Origin: Gammaproteobacteria bacterium
Lineage (GTDB): Bacteria > Pseudomonadota > Gammaproteobacteria > QZLD01
NCBI GenBank assembly: GCA_004796365.1
Contig: QZLE01000147.1
Span: 1 to 39,099 of the forward strand
DNA: 39,099 nucleotides
Direction: 5' to 3'
Part shown: positions 6,773-29,539 of the stretch, piece after piece
Layout: the number at the start of each line of letters is the position of its first letter
How positions within the stretch are numbered: position 1 is the first letter of the stretch
Program-made: the position numbers and the translations under genes
The notes under the pieces: model-generated
Databases searched by the model: none
What the model saw: the letters and a program-made list of their open reading frames with translations, nothing else
Told to the model about the DNA's origin: nothing

Positions 6773-6799
6773 TTCTTGGTATTAACAAGGGTTTGAGCT

Positions 6800-6825: not shown

Positions 6826-6900
6826 ATAAGTAGATGGCAGATTGGAAAAATGTCATATGTGCTTCGTAAGTATTCGGAGTGAAGTTGGAGAGAAGGTTAG

Positions 6901-8850: not shown

Positions 8851-8869
8851 TAGTTAAAAAGAGGTACAT

Positions 8870-10384
8870 ATGAGAGTATCAACAGCGCTATTACATCAAA
8901 AGGGAACTGAATCATTATTGACTCAGCAAACCAAAACGATGAAGACACAGCTACAGATCGCTAGCGGAAAAAGGATATTAACTCCTGCAGATGATCCTGC
9001 TGGTGCCGCCAAAATTCTTGATCTGGAGCAGGCTATCGGTGTAATTGAGCGTTATCAGGATAATATTGGAGATGTTGAAAGTCGCTTATCACTAGAAGAG
9101 TCGGTACTCAATGGAGTTACAGACCTGATCATACGTATGAAAGAACTGGCTATCCAGGGGGCCAATTCCACTCAATCGCCTGAATCACTAAAAGGTATTC
9201 TAGCAGAGGTAGAGGAACATTCGGAAACATTGCTGCAGCTGGCGAATACAAGTGATGGTAACGAATACCTATTTGCAGGGTACAAAAGTAAGACCATCCC
9301 TTTCACTGAAACCGCTGGTGTGTTCACATACAATGGTGACCAAGGTGTCAGAATGACAAAAGTAGGTCCAGGGCGCCAAATTGCTGAAACCGATTCTGGT
9401 TTCGAAGTATTTATGGACCTGCAGGACGGTAACGGCACATTTACTACAGTTCCTAATGGTACAAATGCAGGAACTGGGCAGATATCAGTCGGAACTGTAA
9501 CCGACAGTACTGCTTGGGTGCCGGATACCTACGAAGTCAATTTTCAGACCGATAGCAGTGGTAATTTGGAGTATTTTGTGGTGCAGGATCCAGGTGGAGT
9601 ACCAGCTCAGGTGTCGCCAACTCCAAATCTGCGGGCATCTGCTGATAGCGGTAATGCAGGTTCTGGTACAATAGCTCTCGACTTTGCCGGTGCCGATGAG
9701 ACAAATGCCAATTACTATACACCTATTGATATTGTATTTACCGCTGCCAATGATTTTAATATTGTCAATGCCAATACCCAAGCTGTCATTGATAGTGTTA
9801 CCGGCTATGTAGCGGGAAATAATATTTTCCCCGCTGATGGTGGCTTTGATCCAGGCTATCAGGCACAGATCTCTAATGCGCCCCAGGCCGGTGATTCGTT
9901 CCGGATCGAGCGAAACGCCACCTCATTTGCTGATGGTGATACCATCTCTTTTAATGGGATAGAATTTAAAATAACTGGTGAGCCGGCAGATGGTGACACA
10001 TTTACCGTAGATGAAAGCACTAATCAGTCGATGTTTGAAACCTTCAAAGCGCTGGCCGATGCCCTGAAAATGCCGCAGGATAATCCGGCAGAACGCTCAA
10101 TATTTACCTCGGCAATGGGTAAGGTGATGAAAGAGCTAGATCTGGCGCTTAGTAGCAATAACAGGGTGCAAGCAGAGATTGGGGCGCGCATGAAAGCGGT
10201 TGAAACTGAATATGAGGCTAATACCGGAGCTGTTCTGGCATTGAAACAGAATCTTTCAGTAGTTCAGGATCTAGATATGGCAGATGCGATAACTAAATAC
10301 GAGATGCAGCTTGTGAGTCTGCAGGCGGCTCAGCAAAGTTTTGCCAAGATCCAAGGATTAAGATTGTTTGATTATATTCAGTAA
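8870..10384 (+). CDS. flgL: Flagellar hook-filament junction protein FlgL (HAP3), long form
   Basis: FlgL links FlgK to the flagellin filament. The 504-residue product is much longer than the E. coli protein (317). The N-terminal D0/D1 part (MRVSTALLHQKGTESLL, ASGKRILTPADDPAGAAKILDLEQ) and C-terminal part (IGARMKAVETEYEANTGAVLALKQNLSVVQDLDMADAITKYEMQLVSLQAAQQSFAKI) are flagellin-like. The extra 150-180 residues lie in the middle (about 190-380) and contain two copies of a G-x-P-x-x-GD-x-F module (NAPQAGDSFRIE and GEPADGDTFTVDE), related to one in FlgK. It lies 19 nt after flgK and closes the flagellar block. Confidence 0.95.
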   Translation: MRVSTALLHQKGTESLLTQQTKTMKTQLQIASGKRILTPADDPAGAAKILDLEQAIGVIERYQDNIGDVESRLSLEESVLNGVTDLIIRMKELAIQGANSTQSPESLKGILAEVEEHSETLLQLANTSDGNEYLFAGYKSKTIPFTETAGVFTYNGDQGVRMTKVGPGRQIAETDSGFEVFMDLQDGNGTFTTVPNGTNAGTGQISVGTVTDSTAWVPDTYEVNFQTDSSGNLEYFVVQDPGGVPAQVSPTPNLRASADSGNAGSGTIALDFAGADETNANYYTPIDIVFTAANDFNIVNANTQAVIDSVTGYVAGNNIFPADGGFDPGYQAQISNAPQAGDSFRIERNATSFADGDTISFNGIEFKITGEPADGDTFTVDESTNQSMFETFKALADALKMPQDNPAERSIFTSAMGKVMKELDLALSSNNRVQAEIGARMKAVETEYEANTGAVLALKQNLSVVQDLDMADAITKYEMQLVSLQAAQQSFAKIQGLRLFDYIQ

Positions 10385-10785: not shown

Positions 10786-11074
10786 TATAATAACCTTTAT
10801 AAGTTGTACTATGTGAGGTAATAACTAGTATAGCACTACAAGAAATTGTTAATTGTAGAAACCATCACCTGAAACATAAATATCCTGTATCAGGAACTAT
10901 TTATATGTGTTTTTTTGTTATCTAAGTTTGGAAATCTAAGCAGGAACCATATATTATGTGAATATCGGATGCATGCGGTTTTCTTTGATTTGAACTCCAA
11001 TTGCGATAAAGATTGCACTTATGGGCCAGTCTCTGGTCAAAATGGAAGTGGCAAGAAATACGTGGAAAATCTTA

Positions 11075-13234
11075 ATGTATAATAGATCAATAAACAAAAA
11101 AAGTATGGGCTTTTTTGCCTTAATAATACTTGTTTTTTCAGCTCTTTTTTCTACTCAAATCATTGCAAAAGCCATCAAGCATGAAGAGCTTAAACCGTAT
11201 AACAGTTATTATCAGCAGCTTGCTCCTGAAAAAGAATACAGAGCTACGGCGTTAGAGGTGGTTGCAAGGCTAGGAGTAGGGCACTACAAAGAGATCACCT
11301 TGAATGACAGATTTTCCAGGCAGATCTTTGAAAAAATCTTTGAAGATCTTGATCCAATGCGCATGTTTTTTATACAAAGTGATATAGATGCGCTGCAAAA
11401 ACACAGCGATAAAATTGATGACCATCTGCGCAAAGGCGATACCGGAATTTTCTTTGATATCTATAACCTGTACGCATCTAAAGCAGTTAAAAGATATATC
11501 AAAGTGATTCATGAGATGGATCAAGGTCTGAAGTTTGATTTTAATAAAAAAGAGTTTGTTCAGATCGATAGAGCAGAAGAACCATGGGCTAAGTCGGAAG
11601 CACAGCTTGATGACTTGTGGAGAAAAAGGCTGAAAAATGGCTGGCTTTCTTTGAAACTAGCCGGTAAAGATGATGACAAGATCTATTCTTTATTAAGAAA
11701 GCGCTATATGAATAGCCTTAATCAGGTTAGCCAGGTTAATAAAGGTGATGTATTTGAGATGTCAATAAACTCATATGCATCACTGTTTGATCCTCATACA
11801 CAATACTTTTCCCCGATAAATTCTGAAAATTTCAATATCCGCATGAAGCTTTCTCTTGAAGGGATTGGTGCATTGCTGAAAAAAGAAGACGAATACACAA
11901 AAATTGTAAGATTGATACCTGCAGGACCAGCTGATAAATCCAAGTTGCTCAAGGCAGGGGATAAGGTGATTGGTGTTGCCCAGGACGATGATGAGATGGT
12001 TGATATTATTGGTTGGCGCCTGGATGATGTTGTAAACCTGATTAGGGGAGAGAAGGGAACAACGGTTAGATTAAATGTTATTTCCGGCAATACAGAAGAC
12101 CTTGGTAGCGCAAAGATTATCAGCATAACTAGAGATACAGTAAAGCTAGAAGACAAGGCTGCCAAGAAAAAGATTATTGAGGTAACCCAGGGTGGGCGTA
12201 AATTAAAAGTTGGGGTTATTGATTTGCCAACATTCTATGTAGACTTTAAAGCCTATTATGCAGGTGACCCTGATTACAAAAGCACCACGCGTGATGTAAA
12301 AAGGCTGGTAAATGAGTTAAAACAGGAAGGGATAGACGGGCTGGTTATTGATTTGCGTGATAATGGCGGTGGTTCTCTAACCGAGGCATATACCCTTGCG
12401 GGCCTTTTTATTAAGTCTGGTCCGGTAGTGCAGGTAAAAGACGCGCGCTCAGAAGTTACCAAATATGGTGACTATGACGGCCAGATAACCTATGAAGGGC
12501 CTCTAACGGTTCTGGTAAACCGTCTAAGTGCATCTGCTTCAGAGATTTTTGCTGGTGCCATTCAGGATTATCGTCGCGGTTTGGTAGTTGGTGTGCAAAC
12601 CTTTGGTAAAGGTACGGTACAACATCTGACCCAGCTTGGTAGAGGTCAGCTAAAATATACTCAGGCTAAGTTTTACCGTATCTCTGGTGAAAGCACACAG
12701 AACCAGGGAGTAGTGCCGGATATATCATTTCCAGCACTGTATGATACCTCTGAAATTGGGGAAAGCTCTTTAAAACATGCAATGCCATGGGACTCTATTC
12801 AGCCTGTGCGTTATAGCATGTTTAATGGGTTCGAGCGTTTTATTCCAGAGTTGATACAAAGACATAATACAAGAATGAAATCAAATCCGGAGCTAATTTT
12901 CCTAACAGATCAATTGGACTTGGTGAAACAGGCAAGGGAGAAACAGCAGCTTTCGATAAATGAATCGATTCGCGATAAAGAACGCGCAGAACTTAAGAAG
13001 AACCGCCTGGAGATAGAGAATAAAAAGCGTAAAAGTCTGGGGCAGGAGCTGTTGACCAAACTTGAAGATGATGATGTCGAAGAGGAAGACCAGGAGAAAG
13101 ATCCTCTGCTGGAAGATGAAACGAACAAGTTAGATGAGGATCCACTTCTTGATGAAGCCACTAAAGTGATGGCGGACCTTATCGAGCTTACTGATATTGC
13201 TAATGCCAAAGTTGCTCAAAGAGTGACTAAATAA
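11075..13234 (+). CDS. prc: Carboxy-terminal (tail-specific) periplasmic protease Prc
   Basis: Prc is a periplasmic S41-family serine protease that degrades proteins from their C-termini and in E. coli trims cell-wall hydrolases and other envelope proteins. From the start at 11075 the product has 719 residues (E. coli 682). In order: signal peptide (about 1-32, GFFALIILVFSALFSTQIIAKA), helical N-terminal domain, PDZ domain (about 255-340, with IPAGPADKSKLLKAGDKVIGVA), protease core with IDLRDNGGG (425-433), the serine loop SASASE (485-490) and catalytic lysine K512 in TFGKGTVQ. The Ser-Lys dyad elements are intact. The C-terminus is very acidic (about 655-700) with a short internal repeat (KDPLLEDE / EDPLLDEA). 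In-frame starts at 11021 and 11042 are possible; I prefer 11075 because it gives a normal signal peptide. Confidence 0.93.
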   Translation: MYNRSINKKSMGFFALIILVFSALFSTQIIAKAIKHEELKPYNSYYQQLAPEKEYRATALEVVARLGVGHYKEITLNDRFSRQIFEKIFEDLDPMRMFFIQSDIDALQKHSDKIDDHLRKGDTGIFFDIYNLYASKAVKRYIKVIHEMDQGLKFDFNKKEFVQIDRAEEPWAKSEAQLDDLWRKRLKNGWLSLKLAGKDDDKIYSLLRKRYMNSLNQVSQVNKGDVFEMSINSYASLFDPHTQYFSPINSENFNIRMKLSLEGIGALLKKEDEYTKIVRLIPAGPADKSKLLKAGDKVIGVAQDDDEMVDIIGWRLDDVVNLIRGEKGTTVRLNVISGNTEDLGSAKIISITRDTVKLEDKAAKKKIIEVTQGGRKLKVGVIDLPTFYVDFKAYYAGDPDYKSTTRDVKRLVNELKQEGIDGLVIDLRDNGGGSLTEAYTLAGLFIKSGPVVQVKDARSEVTKYGDYDGQITYEGPLTVLVNRLSASASEIFAGAIQDYRRGLVVGVQTFGKGTVQHLTQLGRGQLKYTQAKFYRISGESTQNQGVVPDISFPALYDTSEIGESSLKHAMPWDSIQPVRYSMFNGFERFIPELIQRHNTRMKSNPELIFLTDQLDLVKQAREKQQLSINESIRDKERAELKKNRLEIENKKRKSLGQELLTKLEDDDVEEEDQEKDPLLEDETNKLDEDPLLDEATKVMADLIELTDIANAKVAQRVTK

Positions 13235-13340: not shown

Positions 13341-14234
13341 CTACCACTTTTTCGAAAGGCTTAAATAGATATAGTTACTTGAATATTCATCATTAAAATT
13401 TATATCTCTAAACTTTTCGTGGCCAAGGACTGAAAGCAAAGAAAATTTGCTGCCAATATCCCATGAGCACCCAACTGATACCGATCCTTCTTGAATATCC
13501 AGGACGTTATAAACGCTGTTGGATGTGTTATCAACGGCATAGATACGCTCTCCAAGCATAAGGCTTGCGGTTAAAAAGTTGATTGGCAGGAACTCACCTT
13601 TTTTAAGCCAGTGGGTTACTGAAACCTCTACAGCTTCTGTTGAATCTATTCCCATTGCCCTGTTAGGGTTATCTGGCTTTATAAAGTAAGCGCCTAGACT
13701 TAGCCAGCCCATTTTATTGTTAAATGCCAATCCGAAGCCCGGGGTGATCTGAGTTACTGAAAGGTTATTTTGATAATTTGTGTATGCTGTTCCAAGGTTA
13801 AGTGAATACACACCAGAATAGGGCATGTAGGCAACCTGCGGAGCTATAGCTGACACCTTATCGCTATTGCCGGTAACGTCATCATTATCGATATAGTAAG
13901 CATCGACTTTGGTGACGATTGTCCCTTTTACCTCGTCAGAGAAAAAGTTATATCTACCGCTGAGAAAAAGCGAATTTTGTTCAATGTCATTATATCCGAG
14001 ATTATAGGTAATTAATGAGTTTTTAACACCAACAGAAAACCCATATTTATTAAGGTAATTACCGGAAAATTTAATTCCACCTCCATGGTATGTATTTCTT
14101 ACATATGCCTGGTAATAGTTACCTCCAAGGGCGCTAACCGACGTGGTTTTTTTCCAGTTGTTGGCGGCATCAGCGGCAATAGCGCTACCGGCTAAAATTG
14201 ATAAGGCACTAAGGGCGATTATTTTCTTTATCAT
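13341..14234 (-). CDS. Predicted outer-membrane beta-barrel protein (last gene of the six-gene operon)
   Basis: A 297-residue exported protein with a clear signal peptide (MIKKIIALSALSILAGSAIA, cleavage near residue 20). The mature part is a series of alternating-residue beta strands rich in Gly, Tyr, Ser and Asn (for example NYYQAYVRNTYHGGGIKFSG, GMGWLS-type turns, FGLAFNNKMGWLSLGAYF) and it ends with a C-terminal tryptophan in YLSLSKKW, as outer-membrane barrels often do. I do not recognise a specific family with certainty; a YaiO-type barrel is possible because a TPR gene lies just upstream, as in that group. It begins 28 nt after the TPR gene. Function is unknown; a pore or surface structure for the operon's product would fit. 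Confidence 0.7.
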   Translation of the reverse strand: MIKKIIALSALSILAGSAIAADAANNWKKTTSVSALGGNYYQAYVRNTYHGGGIKFSGNYLNKYGFSVGVKNSLITYNLGYNDIEQNSLFLSGRYNFFSDEVKGTIVTKVDAYYIDNDDVTGNSDKVSAIAPQVAYMPYSGVYSLNLGTAYTNYQNNLSVTQITPGFGLAFNNKMGWLSLGAYFIKPDNPNRAMGIDSTEAVEVSVTHWLKKGEFLPINFLTASLMLGERIYAVDNTSNSVYNVLDIQEGSVSVGCSWDIGSKFSLLSVLGHEKFRDINFNDEYSSNYIYLSLSKKW

Positions 14235-14262
14235 AGTAGTTTCTGTTAGTTAATTAATGGAG

Positions 14263-14862
14263 TTATTGGTTTATGTAGTTTAGTGCTTCGTAATGATCCG
14301 GATAACGAATCAGAACCTTTTTATAGATATCAACAGCGCTATCTGCCTCATCCAGTTTTGCATAAGCTCTGGCAAGAAATACTAAAACTGTTGTATCTGT
14401 TGGGTAATGTTTGGATAGATTGGCTGCATGGTTTTTTAAGGTAGCCCAGCGTTTTTGTGCTTGCTCACATAACATGATTTTCATATGAGCTGTATAGTTC
14501 CATGGCGATACTTCAAGTACCTGTTTGGCATATCGTTTGGTTTTAGAGTAGCTTTGTTTTGCCAGTAATGGCAGGGTGATTCCAAGTTTTGCATCAATTG
14601 ATTCCTGGTTAATGGCAATTGCTTTTTGGTAATTTGCAATTGAGTCATCATAATTGCCCAATAGATAGCTAAGCCAAGCATATCTGATAAGTGCAAATTC
14701 CTTATCGCTTGACCGGTTTAGATTTTTTTCAATAACTGCTGCAGCTTCAAGGTATTTGCCTTCAGCTTCATATTTATATGATTTTGACCAGAAATCTGAA
14801 TTAGCTGCATTTGCTGTATTTGTTATAAAGGTGGTAAAGATCATTAGTATTATTTTTTTCAT
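14263..14862 (-). CDS. Periplasmic TPR-repeat protein
   Basis: A 199-residue protein with a signal peptide (MKKIILMIFTTFITNTANA) followed by tetratricopeptide-like helical repeats: about 25-60 (YKYEAEGKYLEAAAVIEKNLNRSS), 60-95 (AWLSYLLGNYDDSIANYQKAI), 95-130, and 150-190 (VFLARAYAKLDEADSAVDIYKKVLIRYPDHYEAL). TPRs are protein-protein docking modules. The start at 14862 is chosen over an in-frame ATG at 14898 because it has the ribosome binding site AGGCAGGAA and leaves a proper signal peptide; the longer version would overlap the upstream gene. It is probably a periplasmic partner of the barrel protein encoded next; that link is inferred from adjacency. Confidence 0.82.
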   Translation of the reverse strand: MKKIILMIFTTFITNTANAANSDFWSKSYKYEAEGKYLEAAAVIEKNLNRSSDKEFALIRYAWLSYLLGNYDDSIANYQKAIAINQESIDAKLGITLPLLAKQSYSKTKRYAKQVLEVSPWNYTAHMKIMLCEQAQKRWATLKNHAANLSKHYPTDTTVLVFLARAYAKLDEADSAVDIYKKVLIRYPDHYEALNYINQ

Positions 14863-14884
14863 TTTGTTTTCCTGCCTAATTCTG

Positions 14885-17092
14885 TCATGTTTCAGCATCT
14901 TCGCTTAGTTTTGTCCAGTGTTCTACACCGTAATCGCCTCGCTGCTCTGTAGCAAGTAGCGATAAACAGTATTCGTTGGTGCCGATAATTCCATATATGT
15001 GTTTAAATCCATCTATTGAACACAAGGTCACTTCAGTTTTTAGCGTCCATTCGGCTAATGGGAGAACGTTGAGTTTATGGGAGGCTGTTTGTTTCCAGGT
15101 TTGTCTTATCTGATCATACTGCCTGTTGTATCTGCTTCTCAGGCCTGCGCCAAATGGTCGCAAAGCATACAATAAAATTTTTTGTTTTAGATTAAGGGGC
15201 ATGAATTTAGCAGATGGTGAATCTTGCCATGATGTTGCATTATCACTTAGTGGTGTAAGTCCCACACTCAATATCCATACGTCAAATAATGGGTCTTTGG
15301 GGCCTTGGCGGTCGAAGAAGGCGATAATTCCTTCATGCTCTTCAAATGCACAGCTTGCACCCGCCTCAGACTTTATACGAAACTGACCGTTCAGAGTTAA
15401 CTCTACTTCCAGCACAAAAATTTTTTGCAGTTTGGTGTTATCAATTACAGCAGAGTATTGCAGCCTTCTTCCAACAGGTAAGTGCAATGGTTTGGCAAGC
15501 TTTAGCGACTTTTCAGCAGGTTGTACTGTGTCTTTTTCTGACGGAATAGTGTGCAGATAAAACTTAGCTTGCTCAATATCTTCGTTTTGCTTCTTCTCAG
15601 ATTTTGATATAAGTGTTGCCAGGTGAAACGGGTAGGTGGGGCTTCCCATCGTCGCTTCTGTTTGCACATGCATATGGATATGAGGTTGCGGAGATCTGCC
15701 AGAGTTTCCACAGGCGGCTATAACATCACCAGGGATTACATGGTCCCCCTCTTTTACTTTTATGCTGTTTAGTTTGAGATGACATAGTAATACATGCAGG
15801 CCAGATGTAAGCTTGATTAGGATAAAATTGCCCCAGTTGTTTTTAGTGTTTACCTCTCCGGGGGCATTATCTATTAATCCGTTCATTACCCTGACAACAT
15901 AGCCGTGGGCAGGAGATATCACTGGTAAGCCGTAGCTGAAATAGTCTTCAAGTCTTTCCCCGTCGCCCTGGTAACTGTTGCCGTTATCAACCACAAAAAA
16001 ATCTAGTGCATACTTCCATTGTTTCCGGTGGGTATGCGGACCTTCAAAACCCTGATAAACCTGCCACTCTCCGAAGAAAGGGGGTCTTAGTGGAACGCTG
16101 CCAAGCTTACCTGATCTTACCTTTGCCAGTCTGGCGCGTTCATAGTTGTTTTCCGGCAGGTCTGGATTTTCCAAAAGCAGGTGTGGTGATGATAGGGTTA
16201 TTCTTTTGCGTAGTCCGGCCAAAATCGAAAATGTTGTAATTAAGAATGGAATTGCAAATACCGGGATTCCAAATTCACGCAAAAAGTTTTGTGTTGCCGC
16301 AGTAATCAATGCTGCAAGTGCCGCACCTAGCATAGCTAATGCAAAGCTTTTCCAGTCCGGTATGGTAAAAATTCCGCCAATCGCTACAGCAGTAAGGATA
16401 AAATTAAATCCTGTCCAGTCAGCTTGCCCGGAGTATTCAATTCCTGCAAAGAAGGTAAAAAATAGTTTTCCAACAATGTAGCCGCAAACTGCCAATAGTG
16501 CAAGGTAGCGTGATGTTAGCAGCATGCCTGCAAAAAATACTATACCAGCTAGTGGTAATGGGATAAATAAGGTAGATCCAAGGGCAGTAAAAAAGCCATC
16601 AATAACAGGGGTCATTATGGTTTGTGTTGGAGCATATGGTGTCAGGTAGTGGCTTAGGTTGGAGTAGCCACTGGCAGCAAAAGAGACTATAAGTGCAACA
16701 ATGACAAAAGGTACGCTAAGTACCGGCAGTCGTTCCCAGCGCCAAAGAAAGTCGGTAGCAACCGAGGTTACAAAAACTGCCAGAATAGCTCCGCAGATTA
16801 TAAGCAGAGCCAGATATGGATCGAAGTGATAAGTTGCCCCCAGTGTTAGGCCAACCAGTAGGCTGTTGTAGATATACATTCCACTTGCAATATTGGGGAA
16901 TTTAAATAATCTGGCAGTCAGGTAACCACATACTGCAGCCAGCAGGCCGGATACTGCGGCATTGGGTAGCATGAATGTTGCCAGGATATAGACAGCGCCA
17001 ATCCATGGGCTTTGGGTGAACATAATTGCTGCATATGCTCGAAATAGCCCGGCTAATGGTTGGTGTTGTTTTATGCTTGTGCCTACTATCAT
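14885..17092 (-). CDS. Urea-transporter-family channel fused to M23 metallopeptidase
   Basis: A 735-residue two-part protein. Residues 1-297 match the urea transporter (UT) fold: two homologous halves, each with NxxLxGLxLG-type or FNFILTAVAIGG pore segments (about 74-90 and 229-245) and the LPVLSVPFVIVAL segment (122-134). Residues 335-495 are an M23 (LytM-like) domain: HTHRKQWKYALDF (H353/H355 and D364), YGLPVISPAHGYVVRV, LLCHLK (H438) and the HIHMH zinc/active-site motif (471-475), all apparently intact. Residues 500-735 form a further beta-rich domain I do not recognise. UT proteins pass urea or similar small polar solutes; M23 enzymes usually cut peptidoglycan cross-bridges. The start at 17092 lacks a good ribosome binding site; most of the 43-nt gap before it is a dispersed repeat. 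Confidence 0.87.
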   Translation of the reverse strand: MIVGTSIKQHQPLAGLFRAYAAIMFTQSPWIGAVYILATFMLPNAAVSGLLAAVCGYLTARLFKFPNIASGMYIYNSLLVGLTLGATYHFDPYLALLIICGAILAVFVTSVATDFLWRWERLPVLSVPFVIVALIVSFAASGYSNLSHYLTPYAPTQTIMTPVIDGFFTALGSTLFIPLPLAGIVFFAGMLLTSRYLALLAVCGYIVGKLFFTFFAGIEYSGQADWTGFNFILTAVAIGGIFTIPDWKSFALAMLGAALAALITAATQNFLREFGIPVFAIPFLITTFSILAGLRKRITLSSPHLLLENPDLPENNYERARLAKVRSGKLGSVPLRPPFFGEWQVYQGFEGPHTHRKQWKYALDFFVVDNGNSYQGDGERLEDYFSYGLPVISPAHGYVVRVMNGLIDNAPGEVNTKNNWGNFILIKLTSGLHVLLCHLKLNSIKVKEGDHVIPGDVIAACGNSGRSPQPHIHMHVQTEATMGSPTYPFHLATLISKSEKKQNEDIEQAKFYLHTIPSEKDTVQPAEKSLKLAKPLHLPVGRRLQYSAVIDNTKLQKIFVLEVELTLNGQFRIKSEAGASCAFEEHEGIIAFFDRQGPKDPLFDVWILSVGLTPLSDNATSWQDSPSAKFMPLNLKQKILLYALRPFGAGLRSRYNRQYDQIRQTWKQTASHKLNVLPLAEWTLKTEVTLCSIDGFKHIYGIIGTNEYCLSLLATEQRGDYGVEHWTKLSEDAET

Positions 17093-17102
17093 TTTGCTTT
17101 TT

Positions 17103-17128
17103 TGGATTCACGTCTTTGCGGGAATGAC
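17103..17128. repeat. Dispersed ATTCCC-type palindromic repeat inside the operon
   Basis: The segment begins TGGATTCACG and ends GCGGGAATGAC. It is a degenerate version of the widespread ATTCCCGC...GCGGGAAT element (dRS3-like in Neisseria) and closely matches a second copy near 29578-29604 (18 of the first 22 positions). It fills 26 of the 43 nt between the decarboxylase stop and the UT-M23 start, and so separates that start from any obvious ribosome binding site. Confidence 0.5.
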
Positions 17129-17135
17129 TTGATGT

Positions 17136-18524
17136 TTACCTTTTGTCTGTTGTTATTTTGAACGTATTCACCAAGTCTTTCGGTAGCCTTTCCTGAGCAA
17201 TCATAACAGAGAGATCCTCTGCCTCTCTAACCAGATTTACTTCGCCGCTTTCACGTACCATTACTACATTCGGGCGGTACTCAATAAACTGCATCCACTG
17301 GGTGTTGTTATAGGCACCAACCGGACTGAACACCAGCACATCGCCAATATTGACTGGTGGTATTGAGATGTGGTGACGCATTACATCGATATTCATGCAT
17401 AGCGGGCCATATAGCACAACATCTTCTGGAACTCCTGAAAGTTGTCTGATTGGGCGTACATTATGGTTGTACCAGAATGAGGTGAACATAATATTAACAC
17501 CAGCATCCATGACCACAGCCTTTTTACCATCTGGCATTCTTTTATTGGCAACAACGGAAGATGCCAGTACTTCGGTGTCATCAACCACAGATCTGCCAGA
17601 TTCTAGAATCAGTAGCGGACGCTCTTTGCCGTTGGCTTCGCGGTTTTCTGTTGCCTGCAAAAGAGTGTTACAGATAACCTCGGCATACTGATCAAAAGTT
17701 GGCACTACCTGTTCTGGGGGCAGGTAGGTTCCTTGTAGAGAGTTACGTGAACCAAAACCACCGCCGATATCTATGCTTTCTATTGAGGTTCCGGTTTGGA
17801 TCTCAACCGCTTCCATAAAGTTGCACATGATTTGAACCTGTACTGCATAGGCCTGTGGATCTAGTACAAAGGTGCCGATGTGGCTGTGCAGGCCGTTTAG
17901 ATTCAGGTATTCGCTGCTGCCGATGCGTTTGGCAACATCAATAGCCTGTCCTGATTCAATATTAAAACCGAATCTGCTCCAAGGTTCGGTAAAGCCAGTG
18001 TTAAAGTTTAAACGCATGGTGATAGGCACGGTTTTCTGTTTTTCTTTGGCAATCTGCTCAATCAGATATAGCTCGTCCAAATGGTCAACATGGATTTTTG
18101 CACCTTCTTCTATGGCCTGTTCCAGTATTGGTCTTTCTTTGTGGGGGCCATTAAAGATAATGTTTTTGCCTGGAATACCTAGAGCCCTTGCCTTTTGGTA
18201 TTCAAATTCAGAAACAACTTCGGCCCATGAGCCTTGGTCGTGCAGTACGTTACAGATTGCCCCCAGATAGTTGGTCTTGTAGGACCAGCCGTGAATCACC
18301 TTTGGATATCTTGATTTAAAGGCACGGATCAGGTTGCGAGCATTATTTCTTAACTGCTTTTCCGAGATAATAAAAAGTGGAGAACCATATTGGTTAATGA
18401 GGTCTTTATACGCTACGCCATCAATTTTATCGTCATAGGTTTTCATTGCCGCAGCACCGTGCTTATTGGTGATGCCGGCCTGGTGCTGGGTAATTGTTGG
18501 CTTTTGCCATGTTTTTTTTGTCAT
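17136..18524 (-). CDS. Fold-III PLP-dependent decarboxylase (LysA/ODC superfamily), substrate unknown
   Basis: A 462-residue enzyme of the alanine-racemase-like barrel plus beta domain family that decarboxylates diaminopimelate, ornithine, arginine or related amino acids. Visible residues: PLP lysine K83 in GWSYKTNY, HSHIG (213-217), the phosphate-binding GGGF (254-257), ESGRS (308-312, EPGR in most relatives) and catalytic-type Cys376 in GPLCMNID. DAP decarboxylases carry CES at that point; here it is CMN, so LysA activity is doubtful. About 27 extra residues precede the catalytic domain and contain WQKPTITQHQAGITNKHGA, which looks like a RiPP leader tail rather than part of the barrel. It starts 41 nt after the ATP-grasp gene. 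The product is probably a decarboxylated amino-acid or peptide unit; this is inference. Confidence 0.85.
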   Translation of the reverse strand: MTKKTWQKPTITQHQAGITNKHGAAAMKTYDDKIDGVAYKDLINQYGSPLFIISEKQLRNNARNLIRAFKSRYPKVIHGWSYKTNYLGAICNVLHDQGSWAEVVSEFEYQKARALGIPGKNIIFNGPHKERPILEQAIEEGAKIHVDHLDELYLIEQIAKEKQKTVPITMRLNFNTGFTEPWSRFGFNIESGQAIDVAKRIGSSEYLNLNGLHSHIGTFVLDPQAYAVQVQIMCNFMEAVEIQTGTSIESIDIGGGFGSRNSLQGTYLPPEQVVPTFDQYAEVICNTLLQATENREANGKERPLLILESGRSVVDDTEVLASSVVANKRMPDGKKAVVMDAGVNIMFTSFWYNHNVRPIRQLSGVPEDVVLYGPLCMNIDVMRHHISIPPVNIGDVLVFSPVGAYNNTQWMQFIEYRPNVVMVRESGEVNLVREAEDLSVMIAQERLPKDLVNTFKITTDKR

Positions 18525-18565
18525 GATTGCTTACCTGATAATTATTCTTTTATATTGTTCTTCTT

Positions 18566-19639
18566 TTAATTGGCTACACTTTCTTGGTTAAGTGCCAGAA
18601 AACCGTTTATGGCAATGGATTCAAACTCGTCAAGCGAAACGATTAGCTCTTCTGCATAGCGTATAAACAGTTTGCCTATATGGTATTGCTTAAATTCTGG
18701 GTTATCACCCATAATGGTTTGCACTAATGCTGCTGGCAGGTTTCTGCCAACTCCAACGGACAGGTATATCCAGGCTGGAAAGCGGGGGTTGATTTCGATA
18801 AGTTGGTAGTGACCAGCGGTATCAAGCATAACCTCAACTTCAAGCGGGCCGGGCCAGTTTGCTGCCTTGATTAAAGCCGCTGCTGCATCGTATAACTTTT
18901 TGTCGTCAATGCTTATACCAGCCCAGGCCTTGCCTTTGTCGGTAATTGCGCGTTTTTTCATCATGACAGCACCAAGCATATTGCCTCTGCCGTCACCGTA
19001 GGCGGTAAGGTTAACCTCTTCTCCTTCTACAAATTGCTGTACCAGTATAGGCAGCCCCCATTCAGCAGCAATGCTGTGGAATGCAGCTGCTGCCTCATCG
19101 GCGTTGTTGGCAACCTTGGCATCGTAAAACAGACCCTTTACCACCAACGGGTAGTGCCACCCTTCCATGTGGCAGTCATAGAACCATCCGGCAGAGCTGA
19201 CTCTGGTAACGCCCGGGGTTTTGATTCCCGCCATACGCGCCAGTTCGGGGAGGTTATACTTATTTCTTAGTTTTAACTGCTCCTGGTCGGGGATCAGGGT
19301 TTTGATTCCCAACTCTTCAAGTTCAGGTTTGATGCGTGCTACCGCCTGTAGCTCAGCATCAAGGCAAGGAATGAAAATATCAATGTTTTCATGGGCATGA
19401 ATCTCTTTAATTCGGCCTAACAGTGCTTCCTCACCACTTGAGGGGTATGGTAACATATAGGTTGCATTGCAGTAGTGTGGTCGGTATAAGCCGGGATCAA
19501 GAGCGTCATAGCTTAGCCCGATAATTTTACCGGAAAACGATTCAGATTCTTTGATACAACGGGCAACAGCCATTCCTGGACCTGGGTTGTCAGGTTTGGC
19601 GTTCATCCCGGTAATTGCAACTACGGGACGCTTGGCCAT
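18566..19639 (-). CDS. ATP-grasp ligase
   Basis: A 357-residue ATP-grasp protein (carbamoyl-phosphate-synthase large-chain-like and D-Ala-D-Ala-ligase-like fold). These enzymes join a carboxylate to an amine or thiol through an acyl-phosphate. Domains: N-terminal Rossmann-like part (1-110, with VVAITGMNAKPDNPGPGMAVAR), central lid (120-210, K168 in PLVVKGL and QFVEGEEVNL for nucleotide binding) and C-terminal Mg site (LEVEVMLD at 266-273 and IEINPRFPAW at 281-290; E282, N284 and R286 are the expected metal/phosphate residues). The start codon overlaps the stop of the upstream gene (TAATG), showing translational coupling with the PqqD-type protein. Acceptor and donor cannot be read from the sequence; a role in peptide or amino-acid conjugation is suggested by the neighbours. 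Confidence 0.88.
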   Translation of the reverse strand: MAKRPVVAITGMNAKPDNPGPGMAVARCIKESESFSGKIIGLSYDALDPGLYRPHYCNATYMLPYPSSGEEALLGRIKEIHAHENIDIFIPCLDAELQAVARIKPELEELGIKTLIPDQEQLKLRNKYNLPELARMAGIKTPGVTRVSSAGWFYDCHMEGWHYPLVVKGLFYDAKVANNADEAAAAFHSIAAEWGLPILVQQFVEGEEVNLTAYGDGRGNMLGAVMMKKRAITDKGKAWAGISIDDKKLYDAAAALIKAANWPGPLEVEVMLDTAGHYQLIEINPRFPAWIYLSVGVGRNLPAALVQTIMGDNPEFKQYHIGKLFIRYAEELIVSLDEFESIAINGFLALNQESVAN

Positions 19640-20409
19640 TACAATACTCCTCGAAGTCTGCCGGCGAACTCAAGGATATCTCTTTCTACATTTTCGCGGG
19701 TTACTTCATATTCAGTTGTAATCTTGTCTATGATGGTGCTGATATTTGTCGTCTGCTGCAGGATCTTTAAGATGGAAATTGCCGGTTCGTTTGCAGTAAA
19801 ACTTCTGCCACTTACTGGGTCAAATACAAAACCACTTTCACTGGTTGCTAGTCGGGTTAAAATTTCCTGTTCGGGGAACAGATCGCTTTCAGCGCTCCAC
19901 GGAAGGCTGTTGGAAAGGGTTTTGCGTTTTCGGCGCGCTTCCGGATTGTCCAACTCTACAACTTCTTTTACGAAGAAGAGCAACTCGTTATACAGGTCTT
20001 CTGTGGATCTGTCTGCTGGTAAACCATTGAGCTTGGAGATTGACTCTAAAATGGTCTTTTCAAATTGCTTGCGTAGCTTTCTAAGGGTATCGGTTTCAAT
20101 TAACGGGTCTAGAGATCCTGATATCAGTAGAGTTGCCATATAGCCGTTATCTATAAGGGCATTAATTTTTTTTAGTAGCGCTTCTTCAGTAGTTGGAATG
20201 GAGCTGATAAAGTCGTATATTTCAGCTTCCTTTACCTTTAACCATTTGCTGATTACCTTATCCAGCGATGGGATATGACGCAGCATTTTACCTTCTGATA
20301 TTCCTGAGTATCTCGAAATAAGCTGAGTAGAGATATGAGCGATTCTATTTTCAGCGGCAAGCTGATCAATGCCTTTATATATGGCATTTTGTAATTCTTC
20401 TGTTGTCAT
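19639..20409 (-). CDS. TetR-like helical protein fused to a C-terminal PqqD (RRE-like) domain
   Basis: A 256-residue soluble protein. Residues 8-160 look like a TetR-family regulator: a helix-turn-helix-like stretch (about 26-55, ISTQLISRYSGISEGKMLRHIPS, where TetRs have xSKGTLYRHFPS) followed by an all-helical region. Residues 192-256 are PqqD-like: GFVFDPVSGRSFTANEPAISILKIL, then a winged-helix tail ILEFAGRLRGVL. PqqD domains bind leader peptides of ribosomal natural products and hand them to modifying enzymes. A TetR-like body plus PqqD in one chain is unusual. It is the first gene of the operon; its ribosome binding site is CAGGTG and it is coupled (TAATG) to the ATP-grasp gene. It could be regulator, peptide carrier or both. 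Confidence 0.75.
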   Translation of the reverse strand: MTTEELQNAIYKGIDQLAAENRIAHISTQLISRYSGISEGKMLRHIPSLDKVISKWLKVKEAEIYDFISSIPTTEEALLKKINALIDNGYMATLLISGSLDPLIETDTLRKLRKQFEKTILESISKLNGLPADRSTEDLYNELLFFVKEVVELDNPEARRKRKTLSNSLPWSAESDLFPEQEILTRLATSESGFVFDPVSGRSFTANEPAISILKILQQTTNISTIIDKITTEYEVTRENVERDILEFAGRLRGVL

Positions 20410-20410
20410 G

Positions 20411-20464
20411 TTACACCTGAGGAGTAGCTTGAATAATTATTATTTTCCTTATCTGGAAGTTCAT
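20411..20464 (-). CDS. Possible 17-codon leader ORF upstream of the PqqD-type gene
   Basis: An ATG at 20464 opens MNFQIRKIIIIQATPQV and ends in TAA one base before the PqqD-type start codon. The arrangement would allow translational coupling, but there is no clear ribosome binding site and four consecutive isoleucines come from an AT-rich run. It may be chance; it is listed because it lies exactly at the head of the operon. Confidence 0.2.
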   Translation of the reverse strand: MNFQIRKIIIIQATPQV

Positions 20465-20511: not shown

Positions 20512-21912
20512 TTAAGTTGAATTTATTGGAAGCTGGATAGTTATTTTAAGGCCGCATCTTTCGCTATTATTATCATTGTTACTTTTATTAGTGGCATAAA
20601 TATTTTGAGCTTTTATATCTCCTTGGTGCAGGGTTATTGCTCCATGGGTTATAGCAAGGCCAAGACCAAATCCATCTTTGCTTTGCTGCTTGCCAGACTC
20701 TTTATCATAAACTCTATGAAACGGGGTAAATATCTTTTCAAGGTGATCTTCTGGGATGCCCGGGCCCTGGTCACTAACTTCAATCTTATAATACTCTTGG
20801 TTGTTATTTGTTAACCTAACTTCGATTTTTTCATTTTGTTTAGAGTGCTTTAAGCTATTTCTTATCACATTTTCTATAGCACTGTGCAATAAGTTGCCGG
20901 TGGTTTTAATAGGGAATTGTTGCTCAGTAGGATTAAAGATAATGAGGACATTTTTATTTTGAGCTTCAAATGCGGCATCATCACAAATCGTTATAATTAG
21001 GCTGTTTAGATCAATAGTGTCATCCAAGGTATGTGTGAAGCTTTCACCTAGAGTTGGTAGCTTTAGTATCTGACCAATCAGATCGTTGAGACGAAATATT
21101 TCGGTTTCTATCCTTTCTAATTCTTTGCTGATGGAACCATCTTTTTGCATGGCAAGATCTACAGCTATGCCTGCTCGAGCTAATGGTGAACGTAACTCAT
21201 GAGATATATTGCGTAATAGTTTTTTTTGCTCAGATTGTGTGGCATGCAGTTTATCTGTCATTTTATTAAATATAGTCGCAAGAGAGCCAAGTTCGTCATT
21301 GCGGTTGCAGATTCTTGGGTCGATTTTGGTGTCCAATACACCTTGTACAATGTCATTGGTAGCACTATGTAAAATGGAAATGGGCTTGGTTAAATAAATC
21401 GCTAAAAATAGGCAAATTAGTCCGCATAGAACAATCAAGGCAATAAGTATCATAAGTATCTTATGTGGAGGGTTATTGGAATAGCTCTCGAAATGTTCTT
21501 TTGTAGGCATTCCTACCAGATACCAGGTATTAAGGTTTATATCTTCGATTCGTTTAATTTGCATGAAGTTGGAGATAAGTTCAGCAGATTGCTTATTCTG
21601 AATGAAATTATCAATATCAAACTGGGCCGGAGGAGGAAGGGGACGCTGTGAAATATCACGGCCATTTGCATCAAGCAGATATATCGGCGATATATTCCCA
21701 AGGGGGTTATTACGAATATGATATTTAAACGAATCCGCACCGCCGTTTTTTACAATTCTTTCCCATGAGTCCATGGCCTTTATAACAGGATTTGACTGAG
21801 AATTATAATTCGGTACAAACTGAAAATAGATAAAACCGGAGAAAATACTCAGCACCAAAAATACGGTTCCGAGAAAACCTAAGAAGAATCTAAAGTAAAT
21901 TTTGTTAAGCAT
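20512..21912 (-). CDS. CpxA-like sensor histidine kinase
   Basis: A 466-residue inner-membrane kinase. Two transmembrane helices (about 8-32 and 151-174) bracket a periplasmic sensor of about 115 residues; then HAMP (about 172-225), HisKA with the phospho-accepting His238 in NISHELRSPLAR, and a HATPase domain with N-box NVIRNSLKHSK, G1 DQGPGIP and G2 GFGLGLAI. CpxA senses misfolded envelope proteins in E. coli, and the H-box plus the neighbour RR are CpxA/CpxR-like. The periplasmic sensor does not look obviously like CpxA, so the signal may differ. It begins one base after the stop of the response regulator gene and ends 102 nt before the PqqD-type gene. Confidence 0.9.
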   Translation of the reverse strand: MLNKIYFRFFLGFLGTVFLVLSIFSGFIYFQFVPNYNSQSNPVIKAMDSWERIVKNGGADSFKYHIRNNPLGNISPIYLLDANGRDISQRPLPPPAQFDIDNFIQNKQSAELISNFMQIKRIEDINLNTWYLVGMPTKEHFESYSNNPPHKILMILIALIVLCGLICLFLAIYLTKPISILHSATNDIVQGVLDTKIDPRICNRNDELGSLATIFNKMTDKLHATQSEQKKLLRNISHELRSPLARAGIAVDLAMQKDGSISKELERIETEIFRLNDLIGQILKLPTLGESFTHTLDDTIDLNSLIITICDDAAFEAQNKNVLIIFNPTEQQFPIKTTGNLLHSAIENVIRNSLKHSKQNEKIEVRLTNNNQEYYKIEVSDQGPGIPEDHLEKIFTPFHRVYDKESGKQQSKDGFGLGLAITHGAITLHQGDIKAQNIYATNKSNNDNNSERCGLKITIQLPINST

Positions 21913-21913: not shown

Positions 21914-22609
21914 CTATTGCTTCGCTATTACTATATAACCAACACTGCGAATATTTTTTACTGTGAGTTTTTCAGCACTTATTGAATCGAGTTTTTTGCG
22001 GATGCTGCTGATATGTACATCAATGCTTCTATCGTAAGGAGTGAGCTTTCTATTCATTGCCAACTCAGAAAGCTTTTCTTTGGAAACAGTCTCTCCATGA
22101 TTAATAAACAAGGTGGATAGGATGCTGTACTCAGCTGACGTCAGGCTTATGTCATTATTATTGAAATAGAATAGTCTGTTGTTTTCGTCCAGAGTTATAT
22201 CGCCAAGGGTTATTTTGCTATCGTGATTGGTATTCGTAGCAGGTTTGTCTTTGCTGCGACGGATATTAGCTTTAATTCGAGCCACTAATTCGCGCGGTCG
22301 GCACGGCTTAGGAACATAATCGTCTGCCCCCATTTCCAGCCCAACTACTAAATCAACCTCATCCCCTTTGGCGGTCAGCATAATAATAGGGGTGTCTTTT
22401 TTCTCCTGAATGCGTTTTAAGACATCATAACCGTTCAGATCGGGAAGCATTACGTCAAGAATTATCAGATCGAAATTGTTCTTAGTGGCAGTGTCAATGC
22501 CTTCTGTTGCATTGTGTACTGCCTCGATATAAAAGCCTTCATTGGTTAGATATTCACTTATCAGATCGCATAGTTCTGTGTCGTCATCTATGAGTAAAAG
22601 TTTATCCAT
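21914..22609 (-). CDS. CpxR-like OmpR-family response regulator
   Basis: A 231-residue transcription factor. The receiver domain (1-118) has the acidic pair IDDD (8-10), phosphorylation site D52 in LDVMLP and the conserved lysine in YVPKPC. The DNA-binding winged helix (about 140-230) contains YSILSTLFINHGETVSKEKL and RSIDVHISSIRKKL...NIRSVGYIV. The receiver sequence MLTAKGDEVDLVVGLEMGADDYVPKP tracks CpxR closely; a Phe common after that lysine is Cys here (PKPCRPREL). It is encoded with its kinase in one unit. Targets are unknown; the two same-strand neighbours (NlpC/P60 gene upstream, PqqD operon downstream) are candidates by position. Confidence 0.92.
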   Translation of the reverse strand: MDKLLLIDDDTELCDLISEYLTNEGFYIEAVHNATEGIDTATKNNFDLIILDVMLPDLNGYDVLKRIQEKKDTPIIMLTAKGDEVDLVVGLEMGADDYVPKPCRPRELVARIKANIRRSKDKPATNTNHDSKITLGDITLDENNRLFYFNNNDISLTSAEYSILSTLFINHGETVSKEKLSELAMNRKLTPYDRSIDVHISSIRKKLDSISAEKLTVKNIRSVGYIVIAKQ

Positions 22610-23339: not shown

Positions 23340-25763
23340 CTAAGCAATATCCTTTAGCGGCGTAGGTTTGGCAATCCCGTATCCTTGCGCAAAGTCTACA
23401 CCTATCTCCCTGAGTTTAGCTCCAATGTCATCATTTTCCACAAATTCGGCAATGGTCTTTTTGCCCATTACATGGCCGATATCATTAATTGATTTAACCA
23501 TGGCAGAATCAATAGGGTCTTCTATCATATCCTTAACAAAGCTACCGTCGATCTTTAAGTAATCTACCGGAAAGTTCTTCAGATACTCGAACGATGCCAT
23601 GCCGGTACCAAAATCATCTAACGCAAATCTGCAACCGTATTCGCGCAAAGATTGAATCAGCTCTTTTGCAACATCCGTATTCGCTACCGCCATAGTTTCC
23701 GTAACTTCAAAGCAGATCTTTTCCGGTGGAATGCGGTATTTCTCAAACTGAGTTTCTATATGATTCAGTAGTCCGCTATCGCCAAGTGAACTACCGGAAA
23801 GATTGATAGAACACAGACTAAGTTCTTCCAGATGGTCAGGGTGCTCATGTAGCCATTTAAAGGTGTTTTTGATTACCCAGTAATCTATTTTGGTAATCAT
23901 ATTGTAGCGCTCTGCAGCTCCAAGGAAGATAAACGGAGGTACCAGTTTACCTTCTTCATCTGTCAGTCTTAGAAGAATCTCGTAATGCTTGCCGGTTGAT
24001 TCTCCATCGTTAAGCGGGGCTATGGTCTGGTAGTAGAGTATAAATCTGTCATTATCCAGTGCGTCTTTAAGTTTGGATACCCACTGCATCTCACCATGAC
24101 GATTTGCTATCTCAATATCATCTTCCCGATACAGGTGCAGTTTATTTCTGCCTGAATCTTTGGCCACAAAACATGCGCTATCTGCCTTGCGCAGAACCTC
24201 GGAAACATTTTCCGTTTCATTGTTGATAAGCACAATGCCCATACTAAGCGATATTATAAAGTTCTGCCCACGCCATGAAAAACCCTGCATTTCAATAGTG
24301 GTACGAATGCGGTTGCATGTCATAAGTGCTTGTTCTGCCGTACTGTTACGAAGCAGAATTCCGAACTCGTCTCCTCCAAGTCGGCCGACAATATCTCCCT
24401 GCGGAGATTCTTCCTCTACAACTGGTGCAATTTCCCGCAATAACTGGTCTCCTGCAATATGCCCGCAGGTATCGTTGATTACTTTAAATAGATCAACGTC
24501 TATATAAACCATTGCATGAATCGTGTTTTTCTTTCTTGCGGACTCAATAGACAGTTTTAATCGACGCTCAAATTCACGTCGATTTACCAGGCCGGTAAGC
24601 TCATCATGTGATGATTGATAGCTTATTTGGCGCGTAAGTTGTCTTGCTCCGCTAATGTCACGGAAAACCAATACAGTACCGGTGGTTTCACCATCTGCGT
24701 TGATTATTGGGGTAACAGAATCTTCAATGGATATCTTTTCACCTATTTTCGGAACCAGTAAGTGGCTATGCAGGCCAATGTTTTGGCCTAACTTAATAGC
24801 CTTGGTAACAGGGGATTCAATCTGCTCTTTGCTAAGCTCACTGATGATTTTGTATATTTCAGAGATATGGTTGCCAAGCGCTTCTTCAACTGACCAGCCA
24901 GTTAGCTTTTCTGCCTTAGGATTCATATGGCGGATACTTCCATTATGATCTGTTGTTATAACAGCATCGTTCAGGGCATTTAAGGTTAGTAGGTTTTTTT
25001 GTCTCTCTTCATTTATTTCTTCTTCTGACTCTTTGATCGAGGTGATATCGGTAATGGAGCCGCTGATATAAGGGGGAGAGTTGTCATCACAGCTTTCTAC
25101 CGAAACTCCTTTGGCTAATACCCAGATAAAACCGGCGCTATTATGCTTGACTCGGTGAATGTGCTCAAATGAATCGATATTCCCTTTACAGATTCCACAT
25201 AGCAATTGTTGAAATTCTTCGCGTTCATCGCCAAATATATTATTGATCCAAAGATTAAAGCTGGTTTCTGAATCGGATGGGTTATCAGGAGATTCTATAC
25301 CCATAATGGCGTACCAACGATGGGTGAATTTTGCAGTTTTATCGCCTGGGTTAAAGCTCCAGAAACCATCGTTAGAGGTGTATGTCGAAAGCTGCAGGGC
25401 ATGTTTTTGGGTGGAAAGGTCAGTAAAGAGAGTGCCAAGTTGTTCAATAAGGTCAGATGATTTGGAATTAGTAACGGTTTTTGATCTGCTATTATCAGGA
25501 TTATCTGTAAGAAGCAGTTTATATAGGTTATGTAGTCGTTTTTTGAATGCGGTACTGGCAATTATTATCGCCACCATGGATGAAAGCATGATAGTGGCAA
25601 TAATTATCAAATAGATGGCGATATTTGTCTTGCTGATTAAACTTGCGGAGGTATTATGTTCTGCGGCAATAGCTAAAGTAGTAAAACCAATAATTGAAAA
25701 GATAATTGCTGCTGTATAGCTTATTGATTTAATAAATTGTTTTAAAATAATAATTATTTTCAT
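23340..25763 (-). CDS. Membrane PAS-PAS-GGDEF-EAL cyclic-di-GMP protein
   Basis: From the ATG at 25763 the protein has 807 residues; a GTG at 25772 is an alternative. Two N-terminal hydrophobic segments (about 10-33 and 48-70) are followed by two PAS domains (about 120-245 and 250-370), a GGDEF domain (intact GGDEF at 463-467) and an EAL domain (EIL at 595-597 in the EALLR position; DDFGTG later). Both catalytic cores look intact, so it may make and degrade c-di-GMP, with one activity dominant. The inhibitory RxxD site before GGDEF is not conserved (PQGD). It is transcribed away from the hybrid kinase that starts at 26007. Role is probably motile-to-sessile control, inferred. Confidence 0.93.
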   Translation of the reverse strand: MKIIIILKQFIKSISYTAAIIFSIIGFTTLAIAAEHNTSASLISKTNIAIYLIIIATIMLSSMVAIIIASTAFKKRLHNLYKLLLTDNPDNSRSKTVTNSKSSDLIEQLGTLFTDLSTQKHALQLSTYTSNDGFWSFNPGDKTAKFTHRWYAIMGIESPDNPSDSETSFNLWINNIFGDEREEFQQLLCGICKGNIDSFEHIHRVKHNSAGFIWVLAKGVSVESCDDNSPPYISGSITDITSIKESEEEINEERQKNLLTLNALNDAVITTDHNGSIRHMNPKAEKLTGWSVEEALGNHISEIYKIISELSKEQIESPVTKAIKLGQNIGLHSHLLVPKIGEKISIEDSVTPIINADGETTGTVLVFRDISGARQLTRQISYQSSHDELTGLVNRREFERRLKLSIESARKKNTIHAMVYIDVDLFKVINDTCGHIAGDQLLREIAPVVEEESPQGDIVGRLGGDEFGILLRNSTAEQALMTCNRIRTTIEMQGFSWRGQNFIISLSMGIVLINNETENVSEVLRKADSACFVAKDSGRNKLHLYREDDIEIANRHGEMQWVSKLKDALDNDRFILYYQTIAPLNDGESTGKHYEILLRLTDEEGKLVPPFIFLGAAERYNMITKIDYWVIKNTFKWLHEHPDHLEELSLCSINLSGSSLGDSGLLNHIETQFEKYRIPPEKICFEVTETMAVANTDVAKELIQSLREYGCRFALDDFGTGMASFEYLKNFPVDYLKIDGSFVKDMIEDPIDSAMVKSINDIGHVMGKKTIAEFVENDDIGAKLREIGVDFAQGYGIAKPTPLKDIA

Positions 25764-26006
25764 GACACACACACTTTATTGCGGCAATGACCGGATTGAC
25801 GCTTATTCCCTTGGCACCATTCTCGTATAAAATACTTATGTTGGGTGTGACCTGCTTCCGTTTTAAATCAATTGCCAGAATCTTTGTTATAAAAGTTAGA
25901 ACCCATTGGCAAAAATGAGGTTTTTTTCAGTACATTAGCCGTGCAGAAGCAGTTATTGGACTATCATATAAATAGCTATTTTATTAGCTCCTGGATTTCT
26001 AACCGT

Positions 26007-29534: not shown

Positions 29535-29539
29535 CCAGC

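Follow-up and report, generated by a model that had tools for sequence, protein, structure and literature searches.

Ligation followed by decarboxylation with an enzyme of the alanine-racemase fold is known from the pathways of rhizoferrin, staphyloferrin B, microcin C (MccE) and butirosin (BtrK) (PMC7857480). A large group of PqqD-type recognition elements (RREs) of ribosomally synthesized and post-translationally modified peptides (RiPPs) binds the sequence W/Y/LxxP/L/I (PMC12710340), and urea transporter (UT) proteins are built of ten helices (PMC10541013). Here we analyzed 39,099 nucleotides (nt) of DNA from a gammaproteobacterium of the lineage QZLD01 (assembly GCA_004796365.1, contig QZLE01000147.1, positions 1 to 39,099 of the forward strand), which we call the window. 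A run of six genes in it contains a cassette that combines a PqqD-type domain, an ATP-grasp ligase, a pyridoxal phosphate (PLP) decarboxylase and a UT-fold channel fused to an M23-type peptidase domain. Comparison of related loci shows that the cassette is a real, conserved and co-inherited unit. The gene set has apparently never been described before; no description was found in the open-access literature searched, and an older account in a subscription journal is possible.

A decarboxylase alignment was used to scan 84,980 species genomes. The scan gave 310 relatives, and 80 loci were kept. Together with the window and the loci L021 and L026 they form a set of 83 loci, whose genes were annotated with one profile per family. 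The order PqqD, ATP-grasp, PLP decarboxylase, UT/M23 fusion is the same in nearly all of them. ATP-grasp and the UT/M23 fusion are each found in 80 of the 83 loci, and profiles detect PqqD in 75. Two further PqqD domains were seen by eye, one whole (L091) and one cut by a contig end (L048). The remaining gaps in the gene set lie at contig ends (L087, L090, L094, L106), belong to orphan decarboxylases (L078, L089) or, in a Legionella MAG (L103), concern the channel. Homologues of the last two genes of the run, for a secreted TPR protein and a predicted outer-membrane barrel, are less widespread (41/83 and 37/83 loci). The hosts comprise Zeta-, Gamma-, Beta- and Alphaproteobacteria, Magnetococcales, a Nitrospirae metagenome-assembled genome (MAG), Anaeromyxobacter MAGs and many Obscuribacterales. 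Mariprofundaceae, Ghiorsea, Methylococcaceae, Gallionella, Rhodocyclaceae, Accumulibacter and Rhodospirillales are among them.

Evolutionary distances between the gene families correlate with r = 0.74-0.91 (permutation maximum 0.34), which indicates that the genes travel together. An initial annotation of this DNA had proposed that the six families form one functional unit and had named rare co-occurrence in relatives as grounds for abandoning the idea. Co-occurrence is the rule instead. Within the class, the UT/M23 profile matches 12 of 276 genomes, and the decarboxylase and ATP-grasp profiles match an identical set of nine, all nine with the UT/M23 fusion. In a tenth genome (G167), the contig ends within the decarboxylase gene. 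A survey seeded with the channel covered 398 genomes of the phylum and found 36 with a match. The decarboxylase directly adjoins UT/M23 in 27 of the 29 loci inspected, and the other two have an unrelated fold-I decarboxylase.

A second copy of the operon in the same bin (L021; G000 contig C114, 1-10058) was considered as a paralogue and rejected, its prc end being in the same arrangement. Rather than a duplication, it most likely represents the orthologous locus in a sister population that shares the bin; its channel and decarboxylase are 81-91% identical to those of the window. In a Legionella MAG (L103:8506-11413), the PqqD, ATP-grasp and decarboxylase genes stand between icmB-like and icmF/icmH-like Dot/Icm genes, named by reading, not by family search.

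In the window, six open reading frames (ORFs) occupy the minus strand from 20409 to 13341, with a 1-nt overlap followed by gaps of 41, 43, 22 and 28 nt. These ORFs and spacings are as first annotated, as six same-strand genes with short gaps. The run was placed too far upstream at one end, 20464: the first gene starts at 20409 (minus strand), and the remainder is 55 nt of upstream DNA. The 22-nt gap assumes that the TPR gene begins with the ATG at 14862, upstream of which lies an AGG-rich stretch. The domain calls also hold, by Pfam and, for TetR, by a 17-sequence profile. The genes and the decarboxylase tail discussed below, with lengths in amino acids (aa), are:

19639..20409, minus strand: TetR/PqqD fusion, 256 aa, with an N-terminal TetR-type (SlmA-like) part and a C-terminal PqqD-type RRE at about 19639-19872 (Pfam PqqD, 9e-11)
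18566..19639, minus strand: ATP-grasp ligase, 357 aa (ATPgrasp_Ter, 1.3e-8; PylC-like_N, 6e-4; PRK12767 family, 9e-25, below cutoff)
17136..18524, minus strand: PLP decarboxylase of the alanine-racemase fold (LysA/FigC type), 462 aa (Orn_Arg_deC_N, 1.5e-32)
18456..18524, minus strand: leader-like N-terminal tail of the decarboxylase, residues 1-23 (W6-x2-P9-x-I11 ... G17 ... N20-K21-H22-G23)
14885..17092, minus strand: UT/M23 fusion, 735 aa (Pfam UT, 3e-54; Peptidase_M23, 3.7e-12)
14263..14862, minus strand: secreted TPR protein, 199 aa (TPR_19, 6.6e-11)
13341..14234, minus strand: predicted outer-membrane beta-barrel, 297 aa (signal peptide, sequence pattern)

We tentatively propose that the cassette serves biosynthesis and export, a reading that we favor at somewhat less than an even chance. 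From the conserved genes and tail we infer the chemistry, the docking and the direction of transport as follows. The ATP-grasp enzyme would join an acyl or aminoacyl group to an amino-acid side-chain nitrogen or another end group. The PLP decarboxylase would then strip the alpha-carboxylate of the conjugate, and its pocket residues suggest an N-acyl or aminoacyl amine as the result. During this the PqqD-type domain would hold the decarboxylase by its flexible N-terminal tail, a RiPP-type recognition pair used as enzyme-enzyme glue without a precursor peptide. The amine may exit through the UT-fold channel, whose pore lacks urea-binding residues, and a cytoplasm-facing M23-type zinc domain may trim or gate the substrate. 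In Proteobacteria, the secreted TPR protein and the outer-membrane barrel, or a TolC-family protein in some loci, would complete the exit.

Loci with replaced genes bear on this proposal. The barrel protein has a signal peptide, a beta-type pattern and a C-terminal Trp or other aromatic residue in nearly all homologues (31 aligned), and is predicted to be an outer-membrane beta-barrel; it has no family match and no PDB match. A TolC-family gene lies directly 3' of UT/M23 in L069, L079, L081 and L118, where the TPR and barrel genes are absent. Three other loci (L119:71-5812, L151:7483-13221 and L152:1924-7584) have UT/M23, then TPR and then a fold-I decarboxylase of the Orn/Lys/Arg type, about 900 aa long, which stands where the others have PqqD, ATP-grasp and a fold-III enzyme. 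L151 and L152 are the two exceptions among the 29 channel-seeded loci. The L119 enzyme matches Pfam OKR_DC_1 at 2.7e-72 and is 43% identical to that of L151, which is 87% identical to that of L152. Among solved structures, the nearest to these enzymes is a probable amino-acid decarboxylase from a mycobacterium, of unassigned activity. The three genomes otherwise have just ordinary LysA-like genes. Decarboxylation and outer-membrane exit are thus retained through non-orthologous genes, which supports an exported decarboxylation product rather than any one identity for it. The earlier idea of cytoplasmic synthesis and outward transport of the product agrees with this as well, as both the decarboxylase and the outer-membrane genes are swapped in some loci for unrelated proteins of like function.

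The N-terminal tail of the decarboxylase was absent from the initial annotation, as were the two-component genes adjacent to the cassette. Its family consensus is WxxPx[I/L]...G..NKFG, and it is present in 79 of the 81 loci in which the decarboxylase N-terminus is covered. P9 and N20 are found in all 44 aligned decarboxylases, W6 and K21 in 43 each. With a mean entropy of 1.49 bits, the tail comes close to the core (1.14 bits) in conservation, and a variable linker (3.08 bits) lies between the two. In the AlphaFold2 model of the monomer, the tail is unfolded (pLDDT below 50 for residues 11-26) and the body is mostly above 90. The tail fits the published W/YxxP-type motif of PqqD-type domains, a match of motif alone. 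Its Trp is lost in two decarboxylases without a cassette (L089:4311-5744 and L078:405-1793), and the L089 tail is also frame-broken. Compared with curated leader-peptide families, the tail gave a weak lasso match (E 0.12), which is not used as evidence.

The partner domain resembles the RREs of lasso peptides. A PqqD-only profile has TbiB1 (5.5e-7) and TfuB1 (8e-7), both lasso RREs, as its closest solved relatives. Pfam gave no TetR match for the single TetR/PqqD protein; the 17-sequence profile matches SlmA (5haw, 1.7e-8) and other TetR structures, and also TfuB1 (6jx3) at 3e-6. The TetR fusion occurs in 19 of the 83 loci, mostly in Zetaproteobacteria and the window lineage, and PqqD is free-standing in the others. 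Because the tail is conserved, unfolded and motif-matching, PqqD is similar to lasso RREs, no other leader-like ORF was found in the loci and the Trp is lost in orphan decarboxylases, we infer that the PqqD-type domain grips the tail in an enzyme-enzyme docking.

A true RiPP pathway is the alternative that survives best, though we consider it unlikely. PqqD would then bind a short precursor, unannotated or encoded elsewhere, the ATP-grasp enzyme and the decarboxylase would modify it, M23 would remove the leader and the channel would export the product. The closeness to lasso RREs and the peptidase fold of M23 fit this scheme, and both ATP-grasp enzymes and alanine-racemase-fold decarboxylases (MccE) act in peptide pathways (PMC7857480). 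However, of the parts expected in a RiPP cluster, the PqqD-type RRE is present in the loci and a separate precursor peptide with a leader was found in none of them. A six-frame search of all loci, made with the motif of the tail and with one of lasso type, gave chance matches alone outside the decarboxylase and no leader-like ORF, and no small gene recurs among locus neighbors of at least 70 aa (ORFs below 70 aa were not clustered). The sole conserved leader-like sequence sits on the decarboxylase, so the initial view of PqqD as the binder of a separate peptide was not borne out. In addition, a UT-type pore is narrow for a peptide.

The AlphaFold2 model of the UT/M23 protein (pLDDT 91, pTM 0.87) consists of a UT-fold channel (residues ~10-300), an M23/LytM-fold domain (~333-500) and a new beta-rich C-terminal domain (~510-735). 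In Foldseek, the UT domain matches dvUT with a TM-score of 0.84 and the M23 domain matches LytM domains, and the list contains no fold match for the C-terminal domain, for which none of the searches made gave a known relative. Q24 and E187 of dvUT, which we take to be the urea-coordinating Gln/Glu, one per half, align with A22 and S173 in the window and with Ala, Ser or Gly in nearly all 49 sequences. The Thr of both LPxxTxPF signatures is replaced as well (S126 and A280). The protein was first annotated as a urea transporter; the fold is present, but in the strict sense the name does not apply, as the urea-coordinating residues are gone. The M23 zinc and catalytic residues H355, D364, H438, H471 and H473 are invariant (49/49), with an atypical first motif, H-x8-D.

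Both termini of UT proteins are located in the cytoplasm. Positive charge in this family peaks at the N-terminus (+1.6) and in the linker that follows the last helix (+1.8). Because of the UT fold topology and these positive segments, the M23 domain probably faces the cytoplasm. M23 domains of the same subtype are found on Thermus and haloarchaeal plasmids (L111:2135-3094 and L112:1246-2172), behind N-terminal membrane helices and an Arg-rich linker. A plasmid search for the UT/M23 fusion gave just separate UT or M23 matches.

Two regulatory genes lie upstream of the cassette in the window, in the same order as in L021 and L031. The kinase is 103 nt away and the regulator is next to it:

20512..21912, minus strand: CpxA-like histidine kinase, a probable regulator outside the core (HATPase_c, 1.6e-22; HAMP; HisKA; CpxA model, 3.8e-74, below cutoff)
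21914..22609, minus strand: OmpR/CpxR-type response regulator, 1 nt before the kinase (Response_reg, 6.8e-30; Trans_reg_C, 2.3e-17)

In 22 of 79 loci, spread over different phyla, the cassette has a same-strand two-component gene beside it. With its TetR-PqqD fusion and CpxAR-like pair, the pathway is probably under envelope-signal regulation in the window lineage. A promoter and terminator scan gave counts near those of a shuffled control.

These genes could also belong to a cell-envelope unit under CpxAR-like control, in which a periplasmic M23 domain would act on peptidoglycan or muropeptides, the channel would recover small amides or peptides and the enzymes would rework these. The intact zinc residues and the adjacent two-component genes agree with such a role. 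Wall maintenance is hinted at by the genes flanking the run, prc for a tail-specific protease (11021-13234) and a mepS-like NlpC/P60 gene (22709-23251); E. coli Prc uses a TPR adaptor to degrade MepS. Neither gene is a recurrent neighbor in other loci, however, and the UT topology and charge pattern suggest that M23 lies inside. Its subfamily also occurs in haloarchaea, which have no murein. The cell-wall-type peptidase first annotated is therefore not supported, and an envelope unit seems less likely still than a RiPP pathway.

The decarboxylase has N-citrylornithine decarboxylase FigC (7kh2, 2e-79) as its closest solved structure. K83, H213, E308, C376 and M377 are invariant in 44 sequences. 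LysA, ODC and ADC bind the side-chain amine of their substrates through an acidic residue that follows the catalytic Cys, and FigC has Met at this position (PMC7857480). All 44 cassette enzymes have Met there, like FigC. FigC Thr327 and Tyr331 correspond to T348 and Y352. The citrate-binding R387 and H357, on the other hand, are replaced by Q409 and I379, and the curated FigC/FslC model gives 219 bits, below its cutoff of 500. The simplest candidate for a substrate, judged from these residues, is an amino acid whose side chain bears something other than citrate. The ligase is PRK12767/PylC-like, with 2pn1, CPSase and PylC as PDB relatives.

The resemblance to FigC raises the possibility of a metallophore pathway, in which the decarboxylase would make a chelator of the carboxylate or amine type, with iron or copper as the target of the exported compound. 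FigC and SbnH both serve siderophore pathways as decarboxylases (PMC7857480), and many hosts are iron oxidizers. Genes for copper-type P-type ATPases are found close to the cassette or UT/M23 in L032, L033, L035, L036, L048, L052, L082 and L117, at most 10 kb away in seven loci and beside the UT/M23 gene in L117. The replaced citrate residues argue against this pathway, neither a synthetase of the nonribosomal-peptide-synthetase-independent siderophore (NIS) type nor a receptor recurs among the neighbors, and the ATPase link may be lineage-specific. We rate it as low as the envelope unit. A RiPP-like variant is more doubtful again: the decarboxylase might carry its own precursor, the NKFG region (e.g. 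Lys21) acting as substrate or carrier for the ATP-grasp enzyme, with the group matured in place and the product clipped or released by M23 for export. Such a precursor would be joined to its own modifying enzyme. Lys21 is Arg or absent in L026, L104 and L105, which speaks against covalent attachment at this residue but leaves it conceivable. Ordinary diamino-acid or polyamine metabolism, by a lysA-like gene with a transporter and a peptidase as chance neighbors, is very improbable despite a LysA model match of 3e-64, as the score of 217 bits is below the cutoff of 297.9, no acidic residue follows the catalytic Cys, other substrate residues differ, a separate LysA-like gene is present elsewhere in the genome, and the gene order kept across phyla strongly disfavors it.

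Biosynthesis with a tail-docked decarboxylase, followed by export of the amine, remains our preferred reading, and several observations weigh against it. The ATP-grasp enzyme has diverged too far for a substrate to be assigned to it. The fold-I decarboxylase loci have no ligase, so the product may be a simple diamine or may vary between variants. The tail could pack at a dimer interface, which would be invisible to the monomer model. The evidence for a cytoplasmic M23 domain is homology and charge statistics; loop 113-122 is an exception to the positive-inside rule, and an M23 domain in the cytosol is unusual. UT/M23 is absent from the genome of the Legionella MAG, and transport through the channel could be import.

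Other neighbors were also recorded. In L057, L058, L062, L072, L076 and L055, mostly from Methylococcales, the gene after the cassette encodes a SAM-methyltransferase-like protein of about 253 aa. In the window, prc comes after a set of flagellar genes (57-10384), for hook, P-ring, FlgK and flagellin. On the other side of the run, the region 23340-34269 encodes a PAS-GGDEF-EAL protein, a 7TMR-DISM hybrid kinase and an ABC_transp_aux/DUF4340 set.

A four-gene core whose order is kept across proteobacterial groups, Nitrospirae and Obscuribacterales suggests a product that is important to many free-living bacteria. The hosts include iron oxidizers, methanotrophs and polyphosphate accumulators. 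If PqqD truly holds the decarboxylase tail, peptide-recognition domains are not restricted to peptide precursors, and loci of this kind would be mis-assigned in genome mining that takes PqqD to mark a RiPP pathway. In the UT/M23 fusion, a relative of urea transporters would have been repurposed for another small molecule.

The cassette shares individual parts with several known systems. Rhizoferrin FigA/FigC (FslA/FslC) and SbnH are similar in that an amino acid is first conjugated at its side chain and then decarboxylated by an alanine-racemase-fold enzyme, with Met after the catalytic Cys in FigC. In contrast to these, the cassette ligase is an ATP-grasp enzyme and not an NIS synthetase, its decarboxylase lacks the citrate-binding residues, and PqqD, the tail and UT/M23 have no counterpart there. 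BtrJ is the ATP-grasp ligase of the butirosin side-chain pathway. BtrI/BtrJ/BtrK likewise pair such a ligase with an alanine-racemase-fold decarboxylase (BtrK), there acting on a carrier-bound amino acid, whereas in the cassette loci no acyl-carrier gene recurs among neighbors of at least 70 aa, the recognition element is the PqqD domain and the exporter is unrelated. Lasso B1 proteins (TbiB1, TfuB1) and PqqD have the same recognition fold and a W/YxxP-type target. In contrast to lasso clusters, no precursor peptide was found in the cassette loci, the B2 protease and the asparagine-synthetase-like cyclase are not among the recurrent neighbor families, and the target-like sequence is on an enzyme. 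The bacterial urea transporters dvUT and Yut share the channel fold (TM-score 0.84 to dvUT), but the cassette channel has Ala, Ser or Gly in place of the urea-coordinating Gln/Glu and is fused to M23 and a new C-terminal domain. M23/LytM endopeptidases share the zinc-site residues and the fold, whereas the cassette domain has the atypical H-x8-D motif, is probably cytoplasmic and belongs to a subfamily whose closest members are also found in haloarchaea and Thermus.

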